In this document: positions 29,955-45,522 of the stretch, one piece after another | Layout of the letters: each line of letters opens with the position of its first letter | Position numbering within the stretch: the stretch's first letter is position 1 | The notes under the pieces: generated by a model | Told to the model about the DNA's origin: nothing | Seen by the model: the letters and a program-made list of their open reading frames with translations, nothing else | The model's database searches: none | NCBI RefSeq assembly: GCF_030409905.1 | Contig: NZ_JAUFQT010000001.1 | Coordinates: 124,001 to 188,000 of the forward strand | Reading direction: 5' to 3' | Source: Echinicola jeungdonensis | GTDB taxonomy: Bacteria > Bacteroidota > Bacteroidia > Cytophagales > Cyclobacteriaceae | Length of the DNA: 64,000 nt | Position numbers and translations under genes: made by a program

Positions 29955-30670
29955 TTATTCAACCCCTAACAGGGTTGACTGAATTTCAATCCTTATATCC
30001 CCGGGTTTCACCCAGGGTTATTTTTATTGAAGCCTTAACAGGCTTCACAGTTAGGGATCCTTGACCTTCAATTTGGTATTTCAATTCTCAAAAAAGAGTG
30101 TGCAGGTTACCAATAAATAAACTACCATAGTATCCCCGGAATAATAATTGAAGCTTTAACTGGCCTCCCAGCCAGGGATCCTTGACCTTCATTTTGACAT
30201 TTCAATTCTCAAAAATAGGCAAGCAGATCACTAATATCATTGACTGCCCGAGAATCTACCGGTATAATTATTGAAACCTTAACTGGCTTCACAACCAAAG
30301 GATCCTAGACCTTCATTTTGACATTTCAAATCTCAAAAATAGACAAGCAGATTACCAATATCATAAACCACCAAAGTAATTCCCAGTATAATTATTAAAA
30401 CCTTAACAGTCCTCACAGCCACGGATCCTTAACCATCATTTTGACATTTCAATTCTCAAAAATAGGCAAGCAGATCACTAATATCATTGACTGCCCGAGT
30501 ATCGACCGGTATAATTATTGAAGCTTTAACTGGCCTCCCAACCAGGGATCCTTGCCAATCAATTTGGTATTTCAAATCTCCAAAAAAGGAAAGCAGATTA
30601 CCAATATCATAGACTGCCCGAGAATCTACCGGCATTATAATTGAAGTTTAAACTGGCCTCCCAGCCAGGG
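29955..30670 (-). repeat. Left copy: three-hairpin repeat (C-B-A) plus tandem array of six ~123-bp units
   Basis: The block opens with hairpins AACCCCTAACAGGGTT, CCCCGGGTTTCACCCAGGG and GAAGCCTTAACAGGCTTC. The last begins the first of six units, starting near 30029, 30150, 30273, 30397, 30520 and 30643 (periods 121-124). Each unit starts with an A-type hairpin and then GGATCCTTGACC, a TTTCAA-TCTCAAAAA stretch and AAGCAGAT-ACCAATATCAT. A nearly identical block lies at 36723-37440 in the same orientation. It codes for nothing recognisable. Confidence 0.85.
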
Positions 30671-30819
30671 ATCCCTGAAAATCAATCCTAAATATTCAAA
30701 CCTTATTAGGGGAATCTCTTGTTTGAAATATTTATTGAATTAGTTATCAATTTCTAATTCAGGATTTGGGCAAAAATTCTGTTGTGAAATTCATGCCTAT
30801 TTCTTGGCAAATGCCATTA

Positions 30820-30982: not shown

Positions 30983-31459
30983 ATGAACAGCTACAGGCAA
31001 ATTTATTATCACCTAGTTTTCGGAACAAAAAATAGAGAAAATTCCATCCCAGAAGAACATTGCACTTTATTATATAAATATATTTGGGGAATCATTAAGA
31101 AAAAAGGATGCAACTTATATAGAATCAATGGGATGCAAGAGCATATCCATATATTCACAGACCTTCATCCTTCAATCTGCCTGGCAGACTTTATTAAAGA
31201 TATTAAAGTTTCAAGTAGCTTTTGGTTGAAAAATCACGATAATTTTCCCAAGTGGAATGGATGGGCTAATGGATCGGGGTCTTTTACTTGTTCCCATAAA
31301 GAAAAAGATAGTGTCATAAGCTATATCAAGGGCCAAAAAGAACACCATAAAAAAGTATCATTTATAGAGGAATATGAAGGGCTTCTTAATGAATATGGTA
31401 TTCCTTGGATATTCCGGATGATATTGACCCCTGTTCCGGGCATATTGACCCCTCTTTAG
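30983..31459 (+). pseudogene. REP-associated tyrosine transposase (RAYT, IS200-like Y1), 3' end displaced by an IS21 element
   Basis: A Y1/HUH transposase. The HIH metal motif (H54, H56 in QEHIHIF) and the candidate nucleophile Y114 (SYIKGQKEHHK) are present. The frame is intact through residue 141 (EYGIP), where an IS21-family element has entered. As given, the protein ends with 17 IS-derived residues. Joining base 31406 to 36690, with one copy of the 7-bp duplication, restores YQKEYLLK and a TAA stop at 36715, giving 149 residues. The catalytic core is untouched, so the altered protein may still be active. RAYTs process REP hairpins, which fits the flanking three-hairpin repeats. Confidence 0.88.
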
Positions 31460-36722: not shown

Positions 36723-37440
36723 TTATTCAACCCCTAACAGGGTTGACTGAATTTCAACATCCTTATATCCCCGGGTTTCACCCAGGGTTAATATTATTGA
36801 AGCCTTAACAGGCTTCACAGTTAGGGATCCTTGACCTTCAATTTGGTATTTCAATTCTCAAAAAAGAGTGTGCAGGTTACCAATAAATAAACTACCATAG
36901 TATCCCCGGAATAATAATTGAAGCTTTAACTGGCCTCCCAGCCAGGGATCCTTGACCTTCATTTTGACATTTCAATTCTCAAAAATAGGCAAGCAGATCA
37001 CTAATATCATTGACTGCCCGAGAATCTACCGGTATAATTATTGAAACCTTAGCTGGCTTCACAACCAAAGGATCCTAGACCTTCATATTGACATTTCAAA
37101 TCTCAAAAATAGACAAGCAGATTACCAATATCATAAACCACCAAAGTAATTCCCAGTATAATTATTAAAACCTTAACAGTCCTCACAGCCACGGATCCTT
37201 AACCATCATTTTGACATTTCAATTCTCAAAAATAGGCAAGCAGATCACTAATATCATTGACTGCCCGAGTATCGACCGGTATAATTATTGAAGCTTTAAC
37301 TGGCCTCCCAACCAGGGATCCTTGACCTTCAATTTGGTATTTCAAATCTCCAAAAAAGGCAAGCAGATTACCAATATCATAGACTGCCCGAGAATCTACC
37401 GGTATTATTATGGAGGCCTTAACAGTCTTCACAGCTGGAT
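36723..37440 (-). repeat. Right copy: three-hairpin repeat (C-B-A) plus tandem array of six ~123-bp units
   Basis: This matches the block at 29955-30670 almost base for base, with only a few substitutions and a two-base insertion near 36758. Unit starts are near 36799, 36920, 37043, 37167, 37290 and 37413. The last unit diverges after the hairpin (GGCCTTAACAGTCTTCACAG). The two blocks are direct repeats about 6.77 kb apart. They were only about 1.5 kb apart before the IS21 insertions. The 76-residue open frame across the units is a by-product of the repeat and not a gene. Confidence 0.85.
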
Positions 37441-38784: not shown

Positions 38785-39151
38785 CGTCACTGCGAGGAGG
38801 ACCAGAGGGAGGACGAAGCAGTCTCGACTTCGGTAGACGAGATTACCTGCCTACCGCAGGCAGGCTTCGCTCACCCTAAAGGGATTCGCTCGTAATGACG
38901 TCCTAAGGTGACAGTCCCGACTTCTTCAGACGTCACTGCGAGGAGGAACGATGCGGCAGTCTCGCCTTAGTAACACGAGATTGCTTCTCCCGGCCAACCG
39001 GGATCGCAATGACGTTATAGGATGACAGTCCCGCACTCCGAAAACCGTCACTGCTTTCCGCCTCAGGCGGAGAGGAAGTCCCGGCTTCGGCAGGCAGGCT
39101 TCTTTTCTGGCCCTTCGTCTCCGCTCAGGGACCAGAAAAGAAGCAATGACG
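38785..39151. repeat. CGTCACTGCGAGG/CTCGCAATGACG palindromic repeat array, three units
   Basis: Three units lie at 38785-38900, 38931-39014 and 39046-39151. Each opens with CGTCACTGCGAGG (or CGTCACTGC), has an inner GCAGTCTCG near its middle paired with CGAGATTGC, and closes with CGCAATGACG or a variant. The linkers between units are about 30 bases and also conserved (GACAGTCCCGACTTC). Units carry different inserted mini-palindromes, such as CCTGCCTACCGCAGGCAGG and CCGCCTCAGGCGG. Confidence 0.9.
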
Positions 39152-39176
39152 GAATTCGATGACATTCCCCTTAATC

Positions 39177-40388
39177 CTAAAATCCCTCCAAAGCCCTAAG
39201 GTAATCCGCTATACTTTTTTCCAAGGAAAAGTGCTCCATGGCAAAATCACGGATTCCTTCCTTTTCCATTTGAAAACCTTTTTTTGACCAGCATAGGGCT
39301 TTATCTACAAAACCTGCATCATTATGATCCAGAATATGGACAAAATCCAACCCATCCAAAAGATCTTCCACATCCCCTATTCCCCGGGAAACAATAGTAG
39401 GCAAGCCCATCATTAAATAATCCCCTAATTTAATGGGAGCAATTCCCTGCATACTTGGCTTTGGTTTACGGAGACAAAATGCCCTATCGGCAGCAGCAAG
39501 ATAGGAAGGGACATCCTTTGCAGCAACACTTTTACAAATCACATGTTCTTGCCAGTTGGCTGATATTTTCCCTTTTACAAATTCCAATTGTGGGCTTAGG
39601 ATTAAGAACATACTATTGGGGTTTTTCTGATAAAATGCAGTAAAAATTGCCCACATTTCCTCCCAGGCATATTGGGGGCCCAGACTGCCTTGGTAAACCC
39701 AAAGGGTAGTTTCTTCCTCCAGACCTAATGATTTCCTGATCTTTTCCCTTAACCCCTCTTGAAATGCCATTCCATTGGCATTCCTGCCATTGCTTACTTT
39801 ATAAAACTTATTCCGGTAAGCATCGCCCAAATTTCCCAGGTGAAATTCAATGGCTTTTTGGCTTCGGGTCAATACCCTATTGGCGGTTTGAAGCTGCAAT
39901 GTTTCCTGCTTCTTCAAAAGTTTATACTGAAAATCAGACTTTTTTAGCCCTGCAAAATCCAGGCGCTCCTCCAAAGGCAATCCATCAGCATCAAAAACAG
40001 TTTTAAATTTCCATTTTCTGAGCCAGGGCTTTAGCCGGTTGAGCATCCAGGCAGGCATGGTGCTCCGGGGCATCACCATATCTACCGGTTGGGTTTCCAG
40101 GTATTTTTTTAAAAAACGGGTTCCCCTTAACACCGTCAAATACGTTCCCAAAGCAGGGTGCGGATACCTTGCTATTCTGAAATGGGTGTAAACTATATCC
40201 AGTTTTGTTGATAAAACTTTAATTTCCCTGACCTTTTCCTTAGGAGCCCATGAAAATTGCAATACCTGGCAACGGTAATTGCCCCTTTCCTGTAAACCCG
40301 ATAAAATAGGTAGAAAAAGGCTTTCCAGGTAACTGGTACGATCACTGTCCCAGGTGATGAATAGGAGTTGGGTGGGTTTAGTGTTCAA
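39177..40388 (-). CDS. Glycosyltransferase (GT4-like, GT-B fold)
   Basis: A 403-residue GT-B protein. It starts MNTKPTQLLFITWDSDRTSY. The C-terminal half has LWVYQGSLGPQYAWEEM and FLILSPQLEF, then the donor-site region APIKLGDYLMMGLPTIVSRGIGDVEDLL. This keeps the general GT4 pattern, although the usual E-x7-E is modified. It is probably cytoplasmic or membrane-associated, adding one sugar to the surface polysaccharide. Repeat arrays flank it on both sides (to 39151 and from 40438), so it stands isolated from the contiguous cluster. Confidence 0.82.
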   Translation of the reverse strand: MNTKPTQLLFITWDSDRTSYLESLFLPILSGLQERGNYRCQVLQFSWAPKEKVREIKVLSTKLDIVYTHFRIARYPHPALGTYLTVLRGTRFLKKYLETQPVDMVMPRSTMPAWMLNRLKPWLRKWKFKTVFDADGLPLEERLDFAGLKKSDFQYKLLKKQETLQLQTANRVLTRSQKAIEFHLGNLGDAYRNKFYKVSNGRNANGMAFQEGLREKIRKSLGLEEETTLWVYQGSLGPQYAWEEMWAIFTAFYQKNPNSMFLILSPQLEFVKGKISANWQEHVICKSVAAKDVPSYLAAADRAFCLRKPKPSMQGIAPIKLGDYLMMGLPTIVSRGIGDVEDLLDGLDFVHILDHNDAGFVDKALCWSKKGFQMEKEGIRDFAMEHFSLEKSIADYLRALEGF

Positions 40389-40437
40389 TTTATATTGTAT
40401 TATTTAACTGGTATGTAGTGGGCCCGCCTACAGTAAA

Positions 40438-40688
40438 CGTCATTGCGAGGACGACCAGAAGGAGGACGCGGCAATCTCGTTCAGGACACGTCACTGCGAG
40501 GAGGAACGACGAAGCAGTCTCACTATTAAATGTGGATTGCCATGTCAAGCGAAGAAGTTAGGTTTCCCCAATTTGAGATTGCCTGCCTTCAGTAAACGTC
40601 ACTGCGATCCGCCTCAGGCGGAGTGGCAGTCCCACCGTAGAAAACGAGATTGCCTCGCTAACCCTAAAGGGATTCGCTCGCAATGACG
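40438..40688. repeat. Palindromic repeat array left of the GIY-YIG gene, nested units
   Basis: The array opens with CGTCATTGCGAGGACGACC at 40438. A second left arm (from about 40489) follows inside the first, and a unit with the CCGCCTCAGGCGG mini-palindrome (from about 40598) closes with CTCGCAATGACG at 40688. The order suggests units inserted into other units. Confidence 0.85.
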
Positions 40689-40717
40689 TTATTAGATAAC
40701 AGTCCCGACTTCCTACA

Positions 40718-41254
40718 CGTCACTGCGAGGACGGTCCCGATAGTTATCGGGAGAGGAACGTGGCAGTCTCATATTCAGAGGACAAAATCGAAATCCATTT
40801 CACCAATGATCAATTTAAAGTTCATCATATAAATCCTTCCATTCGGGATTGGATGAATTGATCAAATCCAACTTCTTTTGCCTACTTCCTGCTTTCAATT
40901 GTTTTTCCCTAGAAATTGCCTCCTCAATAGAATGAAAACTTTCAAAATATACCAATTTACTCAAGTGATATCTAAAAGAAAATGAGCTCTTGATTTCATT
41001 ATTCTTATGTTGATAAACCCGACTTTCCAATTTGGCCGTAACACCTACATAAAGCGTTGTATTATTTTTGTTTGTCATTATATATATACAACCTCCTTTT
41101 TTCATGGTACTTGGGTTTTAAAAAATGTCATTGATGATTGCCTACCTAGGTCTAGTCTCCGGTAGGTGAGATTGCCTGCCTACCGCAGGCAGGCTTCGGG
41201 GCATTCAATGGTTTATTTTGAAAAAACAACTTTAGTATGCCCCTCGCAATGACG
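40718..41254. mobile_element. Repeat unit with a GIY-YIG nuclease gene between its arms (putative autonomous element)
   Basis: A full left arm (40718-40770: CGTCACTGCGAGG, a CCCGATAGTTATCGGGA mini-palindrome, then GCAGTCTC) has no partner before the GIY-YIG gene. A full right arm (about 41168-41254: GAGATTGCCTGCC ... CCCCTCGCAATGACG) follows the gene start, with only a short AGTCTC stub before it. The gene therefore lies between the two arms of one 537-bp unit, where other copies have only a short loop. That it is an autonomous mobile unit is inference from this layout. Confidence 0.55.
40815..41105 (-). CDS. Solitary GIY-YIG nuclease-domain protein
   Basis: A 96-residue protein made of a single GIY-YIG domain, like the UvrC N-terminus or the UPF0213/YhbQ group. 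CIYIMTN gives the GIY-type strand with Y8. YVGVT (Y19-V-G21) is the YIG strand. R29 (ESRVYQHK) and the metal-binding Glu E67 (ISREKQLK) complete the active site. The KAGSRQKKLDLI helix is typical of the Bacteroidota subfamily. No other domain for DNA recognition is present. It is embedded in a cluster of palindromic repeats, inside one unit. It is probably an active single-strand- or structure-specific nuclease. The function is not known. Confidence 0.9.
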   Translation of the reverse strand: MKKGGCIYIMTNKNNTTLYVGVTAKLESRVYQHKNNEIKSSFSFRYHLSKLVYFESFHSIEEAISREKQLKAGSRQKKLDLINSSNPEWKDLYDEL

Positions 41255-41616
41255 TAGGAGAATGACGGTCTCGGCTTCGTAAACGTCACTGCGAGGAGGA
41301 TGCCGATAGTTATCGGGAGACGACCGCGGCAGTCTCATTTTCAGTAGACGAGATTGCCGCGCCCTTTTCTTGCCCTCAATCTATCGCAAAAGGGCTCACA
41401 ATGACGTTGAAAAAAGACAGTCCCGACTTCGTACACGTCACTGCGAGGACGACCAGTGGGAGGACGAGGCAGTTTCGTTCAGGACATGTCACTGCGAGGA
41501 GGAACGACGAAGCAGTCTCTCTTTTAAATGGGGATGCCATTTCAAGCTAAGCGATTCCGTATCCTGAATACGAGATTGCTTCAGTCGGCTCATTCTTCAC
41601 CTCCTTCGCAATGACG
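41158..41616. repeat. Palindromic repeat array right of the GIY-YIG gene
   Basis: The right arm of the GIY-YIG unit ends at 41254. Further units lie at 41284-41406 and 41436-41616. The first contains the CCGATAGTTATCGG mini-palindrome and a GCCCTTTTC/AAAGGGC hairpin. The second is nested: one left arm is followed by another (from about 41488) before a single right arm closes with CGCAATGACG. Confidence 0.87.
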
Positions 41617-41650
41617 TTGGAGAATGGCAGTTCTGGCTTCGAAAATATCC

Positions 41651-42718
41651 CTAGGCTTCCCCACTTAATTCCACCATCCAACCTTGGATCTTTTCCCAGT
41701 TTTTTGCTAAAGTATAATCCTCCTCCACCATTTTTCTTCCCGCTTTTCCCATTTTTTGCCTTAAGGTTTTATCTTCCATTAATGTGGATAAGGCATCCAC
41801 CCATTCCTCTTTGGAACCGGCCAAAAAACCATTAATCCCGGGTTGAACCACGGTTTTGTTCATCCCAATTGGGGATGCCACTACGGGCAAACCTGTGGCC
41901 ATATACTGGATCAGTTTATAGGCACATTTTCCCTGTTCCCAAGGAGAATGTTTTAAGGGCATAATGCCTATATCCAAAGCTGATAAATAATCAGCCTCTT
42001 TTTGTTCCTCCCAAACCAATTTTTCTTCCTTGCCACTAAAGCCAACACCCTCCCCATTGGCAATAATGGTCAGGGAAAATCCATGCTTTTCTTTCAATTG
42101 CTCAAGTGCAGGAAGAATCCCTTTCAAATACCTTAAGGTTGTTGGAGAACCTATCCAACCGATTTTAATCTCCCTTTTTCCATTAAGGTGGGCCGGATCA
42201 TAACGATTTAGGTCAACCGAGGTGGGTAAGATTTTAATATTTTTGGCACCGGCCACAGAAGCCCTTCGGGCCAAATAACTATTCCCCGCCCAAACCATGA
42301 AGCTGTTCTTCATTACTCTGTCAATTTTCTTCCCAAGCAATTTTCGAATCCTCGCTTGAGGGTGCTGATCATAATTGTGAAAGATCGCATCATCATAATC
42401 AACTATATAGCGGACTCCCATTCCCGCCCAAAACTTTTCCAACCAGGCCGGAAAAAAGGGAAACAATTCTTTTTCCAGGATCACCAAATCAAATTGTCTG
42501 GCCCTTAAGACCCAGCCAAACCTTCTCCAAAAGCATTTCCAAACATTTCCTTTGCTGATTTTTCTTTTATTATACAATTCCTCCAGGTAGATGTCATTAA
42601 AAAAAGGGGCTACTGTACATTGGTGGCCTGCCTTTTCCCAGAGGGGAATATACTGGTATGTTCTCAACCGACTGCTGGCGCCGGTCCTGGTATATTTGGG
42701 CAAAAAAAGGATTTTCAA
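41651..42718 (-). CDS. Glycosyltransferase family 4-type protein
   Basis: A 355-residue GT-B glycosyltransferase. The N-terminal domain starts MKILFLPKYTRTGASSRLRT, with the glycine-containing acceptor loop. The C-terminal domain has IGWIGSPTTLRYL, LSALDIGIMPL, then CAYKLIQYMATGLPVVASPIG as the donor nucleotide-sugar site and GKAGRKMVEEDYT near the end. A KxxW-type acceptor cannot be inferred. It is probably part of the polysaccharide pathway. Repeat arrays border it at both ends (to 41616 and from 42772). Confidence 0.87.
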   Translation of the reverse strand: MKILFLPKYTRTGASSRLRTYQYIPLWEKAGHQCTVAPFFNDIYLEELYNKRKISKGNVWKCFWRRFGWVLRARQFDLVILEKELFPFFPAWLEKFWAGMGVRYIVDYDDAIFHNYDQHPQARIRKLLGKKIDRVMKNSFMVWAGNSYLARRASVAGAKNIKILPTSVDLNRYDPAHLNGKREIKIGWIGSPTTLRYLKGILPALEQLKEKHGFSLTIIANGEGVGFSGKEEKLVWEEQKEADYLSALDIGIMPLKHSPWEQGKCAYKLIQYMATGLPVVASPIGMNKTVVQPGINGFLAGSKEEWVDALSTLMEDKTLRQKMGKAGRKMVEEDYTLAKNWEKIQGWMVELSGEA

Positions 42719-42771
42719 ATGGTTATTTGTTTTATGGTAATTGTTGAAGAAGCAGTCTCGACTTCGCTAAC

Positions 42772-43224
42772 CGTCACTGCGATCCGCCACAGGCGGAGTG
42801 GCAGTCTCATATTAAGAACACGTCACTGCGAAGAGGAACGACGAAGCAGTCTCAGCTTAGTAGTCGAGATTGCCGCGCCCTTTTCCTGCCCTCACCCTAA
42901 TGCAAAAGGGCTCGCAATGACGTTTTTAGATAACAGTCTCGACTTCGTACACGTCACTGCGAGGCGTTGCGGGGAATTGTGGGCAGGAAGCCGCGGCAGT
43001 CTCATATTTGGTAGACGAGATTGCTTCGGGGCACTCATCGGTTACTTTTAAAACAACACTTTTTTTTGCCCCTCGCAATGACGGATAAAATTGACAGTCA
43101 CGTCACGTCACTGCGAGGAGGAGGAACGACGACAAAGCAGTCTCGACTTAGAAACACGAGATTGCTTCAGGGCATTCAACGGTTACTTTTAAAACAAAAC
43201 CCTTTTTTGCCTCTCGCAATGACG
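42772..43224. repeat. Palindromic repeat array, three complete units and one left arm
   Basis: A left arm with GATCCGCCACAGGCGGA starts at 42772. Complete units follow at 42821-42922 (GCCCTTTTC hairpin), 42952-43083 and 43106-43224. The last two share a closing module, CTTCGGGGCA ... TGCCCCTCGCAATGACG (or a close variant), with ACTTTTAAAACAA between. The linker is about 30 bases where complete. Confidence 0.87.
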
Positions 43225-43238
43225 GTATTTGATGCTAA

Positions 43239-44480
43239 CTATTCCTTTCTAGCTGCTTCTTTCTGGGCAATAATTTCTTTACGCCGTTGATAATATCGCT
43301 GTTTCTCCAAATACTTCAGGTACCGGAGTTTTTTATTGTATACAATCAGGAAAAATATAAAGAGGACAAAATAAACCATCATCATATTCTTCATCCGCAT
43401 AATAGCCCCTAAATTCCCTAAACTATTGGCAAAAGCCAAGGTTACAGGAATTAAAGTTACAAATCCCACTTTCAAAAAAACTGGCATATCCCTTAAAGCT
43501 TCAGGGGTCCAATTCCGGACAATAAAAAAACTTAACCATAAGTACAATGCGTTTTCAAAGGAGCTCAAAAAGGCCATAATGTTATGTGCATCAATAAAAA
43601 TTGGTCGATACAAATAGGTAAAGATCCGCATAGGCAAGGAATAAGAAGAAATATCCACCCCAGAACCTACATTTCCTGAAGACAATAATCCCGCAGTTTT
43701 ATCCGTCAATTCTTCCATCGACTCCAGAGAAAAATCTTCTATTTTTAAAAACTCCAAAGTACTTGAAGATAAATACACTGTAGCCACCATTGCAACAATT
43801 CCTAAAGTGAATTTATATTCTCTCCGGATTTCCGAACCTAAAATAATTGCAATTGCCGCCCCTCCAATTAAAGCCTGTCCCATATGGGGTCTGGCCATAT
43901 AAACAAAAAATAAGGCAATAGCCCCTTGCCACCAACGGGTATTGTATTTTTGCACGGCAAACATAAACCAGGCAATTCCCCAAAAACATAAGGCATCCTT
44001 GCCCACTCCAGCCGACCAAAAATTAAAATTGGCCATATAAAAAATGGTGGGAAATAAAGGAATATTTAGAACTTTATGATTTGTAGGGAAATATTGGGCT
44101 GTCAAAACAAACAAATACCTTATTCCACAAAAGCCTAAAAAACCATATAAAATATTCCCTGTAATATAATTCAACCCCAAAATTCTACTGGGAAAATAAT
44201 TTAACCATAAAATAAAGGTTGTACTTTCCCCAAAGTATTTCATCCATGTTTCTTCTCCTTTTATCAAGACCTGTTCCATCCCTAGCTTCCAATATCCTTG
44301 CGAATCCCCTCCAAAATTAAGAATGTACCAGGTAAAAAACAGGCTAAAAAAAAGATGGTAAAATAATAGATAGTGGAGATGGAGCTCGTATTTATTAGGA
44401 AGCCCGAATTTCCTTGCCATACTTATATTAGTACTGATCAAGGCAATAAGGCATACGATGATAACGATTAAGTCGAGCAA
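43239..44480 (-). CDS. Multi-pass membrane protein, putative polysaccharide polymerase (paralogue 2)
   Basis: A 413-residue protein with about ten membrane segments, paralogous to the protein at 37524-38723. Shared landmarks are GGDSQGYW, GNILYGFLGFCGIRYL, FWSAGVGKDALCFWGIA and MARPHMGQ. The C-terminal 30 residues are charged (YYQRRKEIIAQKEAARKE) and cytoplasmic. As with its paralogue, a polymerase or ligase role in surface glycan assembly is suggested by context only. The stop lies 15 bases from the repeat array ending at 43224. Confidence 0.65.
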   Translation of the reverse strand: MLDLIVIIVCLIALISTNISMARKFGLPNKYELHLHYLLFYHLFFSLFFTWYILNFGGDSQGYWKLGMEQVLIKGEETWMKYFGESTTFILWLNYFPSRILGLNYITGNILYGFLGFCGIRYLFVLTAQYFPTNHKVLNIPLFPTIFYMANFNFWSAGVGKDALCFWGIAWFMFAVQKYNTRWWQGAIALFFVYMARPHMGQALIGGAAIAIILGSEIRREYKFTLGIVAMVATVYLSSSTLEFLKIEDFSLESMEELTDKTAGLLSSGNVGSGVDISSYSLPMRIFTYLYRPIFIDAHNIMAFLSSFENALYLWLSFFIVRNWTPEALRDMPVFLKVGFVTLIPVTLAFANSLGNLGAIMRMKNMMMVYFVLFIFFLIVYNKKLRYLKYLEKQRYYQRRKEIIAQKEAARKE

Positions 44481-44494
44481 AATTTATGATTTAT

Positions 44495-44527
44495 ACCCCA
44501 CCCTAACCCTCCCCTTTAGGGGAGGGC
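44495..44527. repeat. CCCTCCCCTTTAGGGGAGGG palindrome
   Basis: A perfect ten-base palindrome arm preceded by ACCCCACCCTAA. A second copy, with ACCCTTCCCCTTGAGGGGAAGGG, lies at 46643-46677. This is a third small interspersed palindrome family, separate from the two larger ones. Confidence 0.75.
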
Positions 44528-44606
44528 AATAAATCGGGAGTTTTTTAATTGGTTATGTTTTAATGCAATTTTGTAAATATAGGGAGACATTTCCAGCTTC
44601 GCCAAT

Positions 44607-45522
44607 CGTCACGGCGAGTAAGAACGAGGAATCAGTCTCGAACTCGTTACCGTCACTGCGAGGACGACCAAAAGGAGGACGAAGCAGTCTCAACTTCAAA
44701 AGACGAGATTACTTCGCTCACCCTAAAGGGATTCACTCGTAATGACGTCCTTAAATTACAGTCCCCGCTTCGCTAATCGTTACTGCGAGGAGAAACTACG
44801 AAGCAGTCTCGAACTCGTTACCGTCACTGCGAGGACGACGCAGGAGGACGAAGCAGTCTCATATTCGAAAGGCGGGATTGCTTCGGGGCATTTAACGGTT
44901 CCTTTAAAGGAAACACCCTTTTTATGCCCCTCGCAATGACGGAATTCGATTGCAGTGACCGCTTCCCCATTCGTCACTGCTATTGAAGTAGTCCATGCTT
45001 CGGAAAACGAGATTGCTTCATTCCGTTTCTCTTCATTCGCAATGACGTCCTAAGGCGAGATTATTTCGCTCACCCTAAAGGGATTCACTCGTAATTACGT
45101 CCTATGATGACAGTCCCTGCTTCGCTACCCGTCACTGCGAGGAGGAGGAACGACGACGCGGCAGTCTTGTCTTCGGCAGGCGAGATTGCCGCGCCCTTTT
45201 CCTGCCCTTACCAAAGCGCACAAGGGCTCGCAATGACGTTGGAAGATGACAGGCAGGACTTCGCTACCCGTCACTGCAAGGAGGAACGACGAAGCAGTCT
45301 CAAATTCAGTAGACAAGATTGCCGCGCCCTTTTCCTGCCCTTACCCAAGCGCACTAGGGCTCGCAATGACGTTGGAAGATGACAGGCAGGCCTTTGCTAC
45401 ACGTCAATGCGAGGACGACCAGAGGGAGGACACGGCAGTCTCGACTTTGAAAACGTGATTGCTTCGGGGCATGCAACAATTTGTTACCAAGGGACGCCTC
45501 ACTTATGCCCCTCGAAATGACG
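44607..45522. repeat. Largest palindromic repeat array, about seven complete units plus fragments
   Basis: Complete or near-complete units lie at 44651-44747, 44822-44941, 44972-45047, 45130-45238, 45269-45371 and 45402-45522. Orphan arms lie at 44607 and 44778 (left) and 45054-45100 (right). Closing modules come in three interchangeable types: ACCCTAAAGGGAT hairpin, GCCCTTTTC ... AAGGGC hairpin, and CTTCGGGGCA ... TGCCCC stem. The ~30-base linkers between units read GATGACAGTCCCTGCTTCGC or similar. The last unit overlaps the end of the neighbouring glycosyltransferase gene. Confidence 0.88.

Follow-up and report, generated by a model that had tools for sequence, protein, structure and literature searches.

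The 64-kb stretch of DNA analysed here, hereafter referred to as the window, probably harbors a mobile cassette, in which the gene for a small GIY-YIG endonuclease is bracketed by its cognate palindromic repeats and whose spread would be driven by the nuclease. The link between the gene and the repeats is not accidental, and the pairing of enzyme and repeat, with matching variants, recurs across many bacterial phyla. In our view, the GIY-YIG nuclease is a strong candidate for the missing driver behind the spread of these repeats. The gene, its arms and the surrounding repeats are located in the window as follows.

40815-41105, minus strand: solitary GIY-YIG nuclease gene encoding 96 aa (ORF list, Pfam and alignment)
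40718-40770, plus strand: left arm, C-type CGTC-ACTGC...GCAGT-CTC, adjoining the 3′-end of the gene
41168-41254, plus strand: right arm, T-type GAG-ATTGC...GCAAT-GACG, adjoining the 5′-end of the gene
38785-39151, plus strand: gene-free repeat units in gap 1, with 3 left and 3 right tags
40438-40688, plus strand: gene-free repeats in gap 2, beside the gene-bearing unit, with 3 left tags and 1 right tag
41284-41616, plus strand: gene-free repeats in gap 2, flanking the gene-bearing unit on the opposite side, with 3 left and 2 right tags
42772-43224, plus strand: gene-free repeat units in gap 3, with 4 left and 3 right tags
44607-45522, plus strand: gene-free repeat units in gap 4, including a tandem stretch with a period of 133 bp (45120-45415)

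Direct reading yielded CGTCACTGCGAGG...GGCAGTCTC for the left arm and GAGATTGCC...CTCGCAATGACG for the right arm, with an additional GATTGCC at positions 41136-41142 immediately before the latter. Together with the ORF coordinates, this reading bears out the original prediction that a nuclease gene lies between a left and a right arm. The encoded protein matches the Pfam family PF01541 (GIY-YIG) with an E-value of 3.9e-16 and 59.5 bits, compared with a cut-off of 22.6. Judged by this profile match, the fold is clear and the protein is a member of the GIY-YIG superfamily. Moreover, residues Y8, Y19, R29 and E67 are all present and fall in invariant columns of an alignment of 22 sequences, in line with the predicted 96-residue GIY-YIG protein with a complete active site.

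The gene-bearing unit is embedded in an array (38785-45522) that fills four successive inter-ORF gaps. With at most one mismatch allowed, the array comprises 23 left and 17 right tags, compared with 8 and 3, respectively, in the remainder of the window, which agrees with the roughly 20 gene-free units predicted within 7 kb. The stem starts with AC in 20 of the 23 left tags, and 16 of the 17 right tags read AATGACG, indicating that nearly all units of the array share one polarity, which is that of the gene-holding unit. Left and right arms alternate through most of the array, with some surplus of left arms, and the final right tag overlaps with the beginning of the ORF at 45499, for which the start codon is uncertain. 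The exact sequence CGTCAYTGCGAG occurs at 34 sites in the 4.53-Mb genome, 20 of which are located inside 6.6 kb around the gene, and the reversed control pattern gave no sites in the genome-wide count. When folded as single-stranded DNA, the whole unit 42814-42922 and the right arm folded better than shuffled sequences (z of -3.2 and -3.3, respectively), and the folds of the left arm (z of -1.5) and of another unit (z of -0.9) were not distinct from shuffles. The CGTC tag is unpaired in the fold of 40718-40770 and pairs with GACG in the whole-unit fold. A search of the window against Rfam gave no match at the gathering threshold. As a remark on the assembly, matching stretches were observed at G000:C1:3187541 and G000:C2:9691, as well as at C10:4188 and C11:4191 of the same genome, which may represent overlapping contig ends.

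The original prediction had made the link depend on how often homologous genes are flanked by such arms. Genome contigs were searched with an alignment of 22 homologues, and the best 80 of 575 loci, a selection biased towards close relatives of the first alignment row, were kept and sorted by record title into 24 coarse host groups. Hairpins were detected by a GTC tag and a 5-bp stem, a detector that was chosen after inspection of the data and run with shuffles and intergenic controls. Homologues proved to be mostly flanked: in this set of the best 80 of 575 loci, 54 have tagged hairpins at a distance of up to 300 bp on both sides of the gene, 23 on one side and 3 on neither side, which amounts to 77 loci with at least one side, compared with 0.7 two-sided loci and 13.8 loci with at least one side when the flanks were shuffled. 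At the same loci, the density of GTC-tagged hairpins amounts to 6.44 per kb beside the gene and to 0.97 per kb in other intergenic DNA. With a strict detector requiring an exact 6-bp stem, only 15 of the 79 loci with full flanks were positive on both sides; the 5-bp stem was adopted because the flanks of 33 strict-detector negatives revealed a 5-bp core in most true arms. The 6-bp stem likewise yielded hairpins in 22 of 78 and 23 of 80 of the nearest 300-bp bins, and in at most 12% in every bin further out.

Among the Bacteroidota relatives, where 71 of 76 matches were considered (G037:C46, G076:C331 and three matches in G024 were left out), hairpins were found on both sides at 32 of 71 loci, on one side at 20 and on at least one side at 52, these being raw counts, as the shuffle control covers the 80-locus set only. 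At the remaining 19 of these 71 loci no GTC-tagged hairpin was found, which counts against the mobile-cassette reading. Inspection by eye of four homologues without a nearby GTC-tagged hairpin (L028, L031, L033 and L034) revealed other adjoining palindromes, which suggests further repeat families with other tags. In addition, 10 of 33 homologue-bearing plasmid records were examined by eye, and repeats were observed on both sides of the gene in 9 of the 10 and on one side in Photobacterium; on the S. meliloti plasmid the repeat tag reads CCTC. On a Planktothrix agardhii plasmid (L042), a GIY-YIG cassette with GTCATTCTGAG repeats is located between an MmeI-type restriction gene and the DISARM gene drmA.

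The sequence of the arms tracks the sequence of the protein beyond the host group. PF01541 has 10 matches in the genome of the window, and a second solitary gene of the same kind (L004) carries arms of a different palindrome family (ATCCC/ATTCC). Likewise, different genes of one genome belong to different stem families in G000, G003, G024, G036, G037, G042 and G045. The arm type could be assigned at 76 of the 80 loci, and in 34 of these 76 cases the closest neighbour by protein sequence has the same arm 5-mer, compared with a permuted mean of 8.9. When the neighbour was taken from another host group, with host relatedness handled by the coarse title-based groups, 29 of 76 still share the 5-mer, compared with a mean of 14.5 and a maximum of 26 in 1000 within-group permutations (p=0.001).

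Genomes with the gene also contain more of the matching repeats. The gene is patchily distributed, being present in 41 of 98 relatives. These 41 genomes contain a median of 9 and a mean of 17.2 GTCATTGCGA sites, compared with 5 and 5.9, respectively, in the 57 genomes without it (p=3e-6), whereas the reversed GTCATTGCGA control gave p=0.10 for the same comparison. For four stems, represented by 12, 4, 3 and 4 genomes, the own-stem medians are 28, 13.5, 27 and 26 (p=1e-7, 0.006, 0.008 and 0.025 against the rest), where the repeats adjacent to the gene are part of the own-stem counts and the 58 genomes classed as lacking it include G076, which has a homologue match at a locus outside the set. 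However, genomes with the gene and another stem likewise exceed gene-less genomes in all four tests (p from 0.026 to 0.00025), which means that the abundance signal is in part independent of the stem. Moreover, at least 15 GTCATTGCGA sites were counted in 5 of the 57 genomes without a detected gene (G008, 26; G093, 27; G054, 17; G069, 16; G087, 15), for which either gene loss or another spreader is needed. The anticipated difference in repeat number holds between the two groups of genomes.

The gene appears to move together with its repeats as a unit, as judged from sequence comparison of related loci. In two species of the genus of the window, we observed a 98% identical cassette of 564 bp, composed of unit, gene and unit, at different loci (L014 in G010 and L015 in G005). 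The identity starts exactly at CGTC at the left end and reaches the GACG tag and TTTT beyond it at the right end, where the L014 tag has lost bases; cassette ends are defined in this pair only, one exactly and one within 4 bp of the tag. Since identity is just 82-85% between L013 and L014, syntenic loci that can be matched along almost all of their length, the cassette shared by L014 and L015 has moved recently, either inside one species or from one to another. In addition, pairs of duplicate GIY-YIG copies lying close together in one genome were noted, with 83-90% identity and accompanied by repeats in G046 (L029 and L056) and with 82-84% identity in G023 (L068 and L072).

As for a transposable element, filled and empty sites were found, namely at the G005 site, in Azospirillum and in Shinella, the empty sites not being base-exact. 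The cassette in G005 follows a gene that is present in 11 of 11 genomes of the genus searched. Five of these (G003, G008, G001, G006 and G007) contain the same downstream gene with neither a nuclease gene nor a CGTC-type repeat in between. G009 also has this downstream gene without the nuclease, but with an TGTCATCCTGA hairpin that has another stem. A different stretch, containing a degraded repeat unit, is present in G002, and in G000, G004 and G010 the downstream region differs. About 40 and 27 extra bases lie outside the tags at the G005 junction, and with this site not being base-exact, no target-site duplication was seen in the comparisons of filled and empty sites. In Azospirillum lipoferum 4B, the cassette is located between sufB and sufC, a gap that in A. 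ramasamyi, A. oryzae, strain B510 and A. thermophilum comprises 55-129 bp with neither the gene nor a tagged hairpin. In two Shinella plasmids the cassette has an amidohydrolase gene on one side and a carbon-nitrogen hydrolase gene on the other; at this site two others, L186 and L187, lack both the gene and the cognate repeat, and a third, L189, is devoid of the gene and of almost the entire gap and has one CGTC-tagged hairpin of another stem (ATCCG). No usable empty site was found for Rhizobium plasmid flanks. A cassette could alternatively be placed by interspecies transfer and subsequent ordinary recombination.

A different explanation is that the nuclease homes into existing repeats: it would cut gene-less units, repair would write the gene into the loop, and the repeats would spread otherwise. 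We regard this as unlikely, even though GIY-YIG is a classical homing-endonuclease fold according to parts of the 2006 survey (PMC1564403) and the gene often lies between a left and a right half, as in the window, L022, L027 and L038. At 28 of the 54 two-sided loci of the 80-locus set, the arms closest to the gene have the orientation seen in the window, with the left half before and the right half after the gene (9, 9 and 8 for the other arrangements). However, this layout is not preferred in the Bacteroidota set, where it was found at 7 of 32 two-sided loci (10, 8 and 7 for the others) and where the gene often lies between complete units; complete units were observed on both sides at L013-L015 and L049. 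The gene need not occupy the loop of a single unit, since among the Bacteroidota loci this arrangement is no more frequent than the others. Furthermore, homing explains the layout with two halves but not the presence of cassettes at sites where relatives are devoid of the cognate repeat, as in Azospirillum between sufB and sufC, in Shinella and in G005 when compared with the five other genomes.

Enzyme and repeats could also be kept together by selection if a nuclease of the Ssn type served the host, single-stranded cuts at the repeats tuning DNA uptake and recombination. A 2025 paper in Nature Communications reportedly describes Ssn proteins as site-specific GIY-YIG nucleases that cut single-stranded repeats and as a modulator of transformation, and is reported to ascribe such a role to the Neisseria protein. 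The Neisseria homologue found here, which we take to be this Ssn protein, aligns with the window protein over 88 aa at 43% identity (E=5e-27), and CGTCATTCCCGCG repeats lie on its flanks. However, the patchy presence in 41 of 98 relatives, the several unlike copies per genome and the recent movement look selfish, and we therefore consider this explanation improbable. A host-serving role is conceivable, and it would not exclude selfish movement.

That a transposase of the Y1/RAYT type mobilises the repeats while the GIY-YIG gene hitch-hikes is highly improbable. The window does contain one intact-looking Y1 transposase gene (30983-31459). However, this gene adjoins another repeat family with a length of 123 bp, and a Y1 gene flanked by the repeats, as in RAYT/REP systems, was not found: the 1.5-kb flanks of the three Y1 matches in the genome contain no bracketing pair of GTC-tagged hairpins, L232 and L233 having one chance-like hairpin each and L234 none. 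In the 2013 survey of CGTC-tagged REPs (PMC3733652), no checked tyrosine transposase gene was flanked by CGTC repeats. The 123-bp family itself forms 5.2 tandem copies at 36793-37435 of the window and is unrelated to the CGTC arms, and a similar sequence occurs at about 30500-30710, beside the Y1 (IS200-type) gene. Finally, chance proximity in repeat-rich intergenic DNA is refuted, since, even with the clustering of repeats in this region, the flanking (54 of 80 two-sided loci, 0.7 expected), own-stem abundance and covariation tests all exceed their controls.

In the mobile cassette that we favor, the substrate recognised by the nuclease would be the cognate arm in the form of a single-stranded hairpin, for instance on the lagging strand or in incoming DNA, and the cut would fall at or near the CGTC tag. 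Host repair might then join or copy the freed or broken DNA into new places. By these steps the gene-bearing cassette would spread itself, and gene-free units would spread in trans, as MITEs do via a transposase or REPs via a RAYT. We know of no GIY-YIG enzyme that forms the covalent intermediates used by transposases, which counts against this reading.

The genome of the window also contains a second GIY-YIG subfamily, which is tied to tRNA genes.

G000:C1:994.7-995.3 kb and G000:C2:972.3 kb: L003 (1382-1830), L001 and L007 (1366-1880), tRNA-linked GIY-YIG genes

L003 follows an intact tRNA-Val gene and L007 a tRNA-Met gene, and in both cases a partial copy of the same tRNA with an altered anticodon arm comes next; L001, arranged in tandem with L003, is located between two partial tRNA copies. 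Across the genome of the window and its relatives, a same-strand tRNA gene ends at most 150 bp upstream at 21 of 27 loci, a set from which 4 of 31 loci were left out owing to unclear coordinates and which includes tandem copies from one genome and the three loci of the window's own genome. A tRNA-derived copy follows the gene at 18 of these 21 loci, which is above all 40 shuffles. Among the other six loci, five have a tRNA gene further upstream and L216 has none. At the tRNA-Val site of the genus, G004 and G005 contain two adjacent tRNAs, and the tRNA-linked subfamily was not found in these two genomes at E ≤ 1e-8. The tRNA-linked and the repeat-linked protein groups are 27% identical. It is conceivable, and put forward here tentatively, that minimal mobile elements built on solitary GIY-YIG nucleases constitute a broad class, each gene lying between folded copies of its target. 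One branch would be the missing mobiliser of CGTC-type REPs across bacteria in general and the other would be the tRNA-associated one of the same genome, both operating by nuclease-triggered duplication of the hairpin target.

Palindromic repeats account for a large share of the non-coding DNA in many bacteria. A cognate, covarying nuclease between the arms makes the spread of CGTC repeats directly testable, and many enzyme-repeat pairs are on offer for work on specificity. Moreover, the system points to a mode of DNA movement independent of a classical transposase.

The repeats of the window resemble CGTC-tagged REPs in tag and dimer form and, on these sequence features, are likely relatives of them. 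According to parts of the survey by Di Nocera et al. 2013 (PMC3733652), CGTC-tagged REPs are hairpins with a CGTC, TGTC or CCTC tag at one end, are mostly intergenic, mostly form head-to-head dimers, with heterodimers in some families, have stems of 8-9 bp and loops of 4-5 bases, and are known from Bacteroidetes and four other phyla. The same parts report no associated transposase and left the spreader open in 2013, and the term GIY is absent from the main text of the survey (PMC3733652). The window shares with them the tag followed by A as the first base of the stem (23 left and 17 right tags) as well as the head-to-head dimer form, and differs in the size of stem and loop, its arms having the 5-bp core ACTGC/GCAGT and a long loop. 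At L049 and L050, however, inspection revealed repeats of the CGTC-REP form, with a stem of 8-9 bp and a loop of 4-5 bases, beside GIY-YIG genes. Of the proposed new repeat-spreading system, the movement of the cassette with its repeats stands, whereas "new" is too strong a word in view of the resemblance to published CGTC-tagged REPs and of the GIY-YIG Ssn nucleases reported in 2025 to cut such repeats as single strands. The parts of the 2006 GIY-YIG survey consulted (PMC1564403) name no such repeat link, GIY does not occur in the passages of PMC12306157 and PMC9769881 consulted, and among the matches listed by a literature search none connects GIY-YIG with REPs in its title or in the beginning of its abstract. 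The sole solved structures matched by the profile at E ≤ 0.001 are the UPF0213 structures 1zg2 and 1ywl, both deposited as hypothetical proteins with no function named.

The RAYT/REP systems, with TnpA-REP and the IS200/IS605-like tyrosine transposases, are similar in having a nuclease gene between palindromes and many gene-free copies, and in the logic proposed for them; they employ an HUH tyrosine transposase and a GTAG tag, whereas a GIY-YIG enzyme and a CGTC tag are found here. The pairs of IS elements and MITEs likewise combine an autonomous copy with inverted-repeat ends and gene-free copies, the difference being that here neither a transposase nor a target-site duplication was seen. Free-standing GIY-YIG homing endonucleases share the nuclease fold and selfish spread; in contrast, the present genes involve no intron or intein, have many dispersed targets and occupy sites that lack the cognate repeat in relatives. 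The link between enzyme and repeat may partly be known already from the 2025 work on Ssn, which, like the window protein, is reported to be a small solitary GIY-YIG protein with cognate repeats in the genome; what is argued here is the position of the gene between the arms, the movement of the cassette and the identity of its partner as a CGTC-tagged REP.
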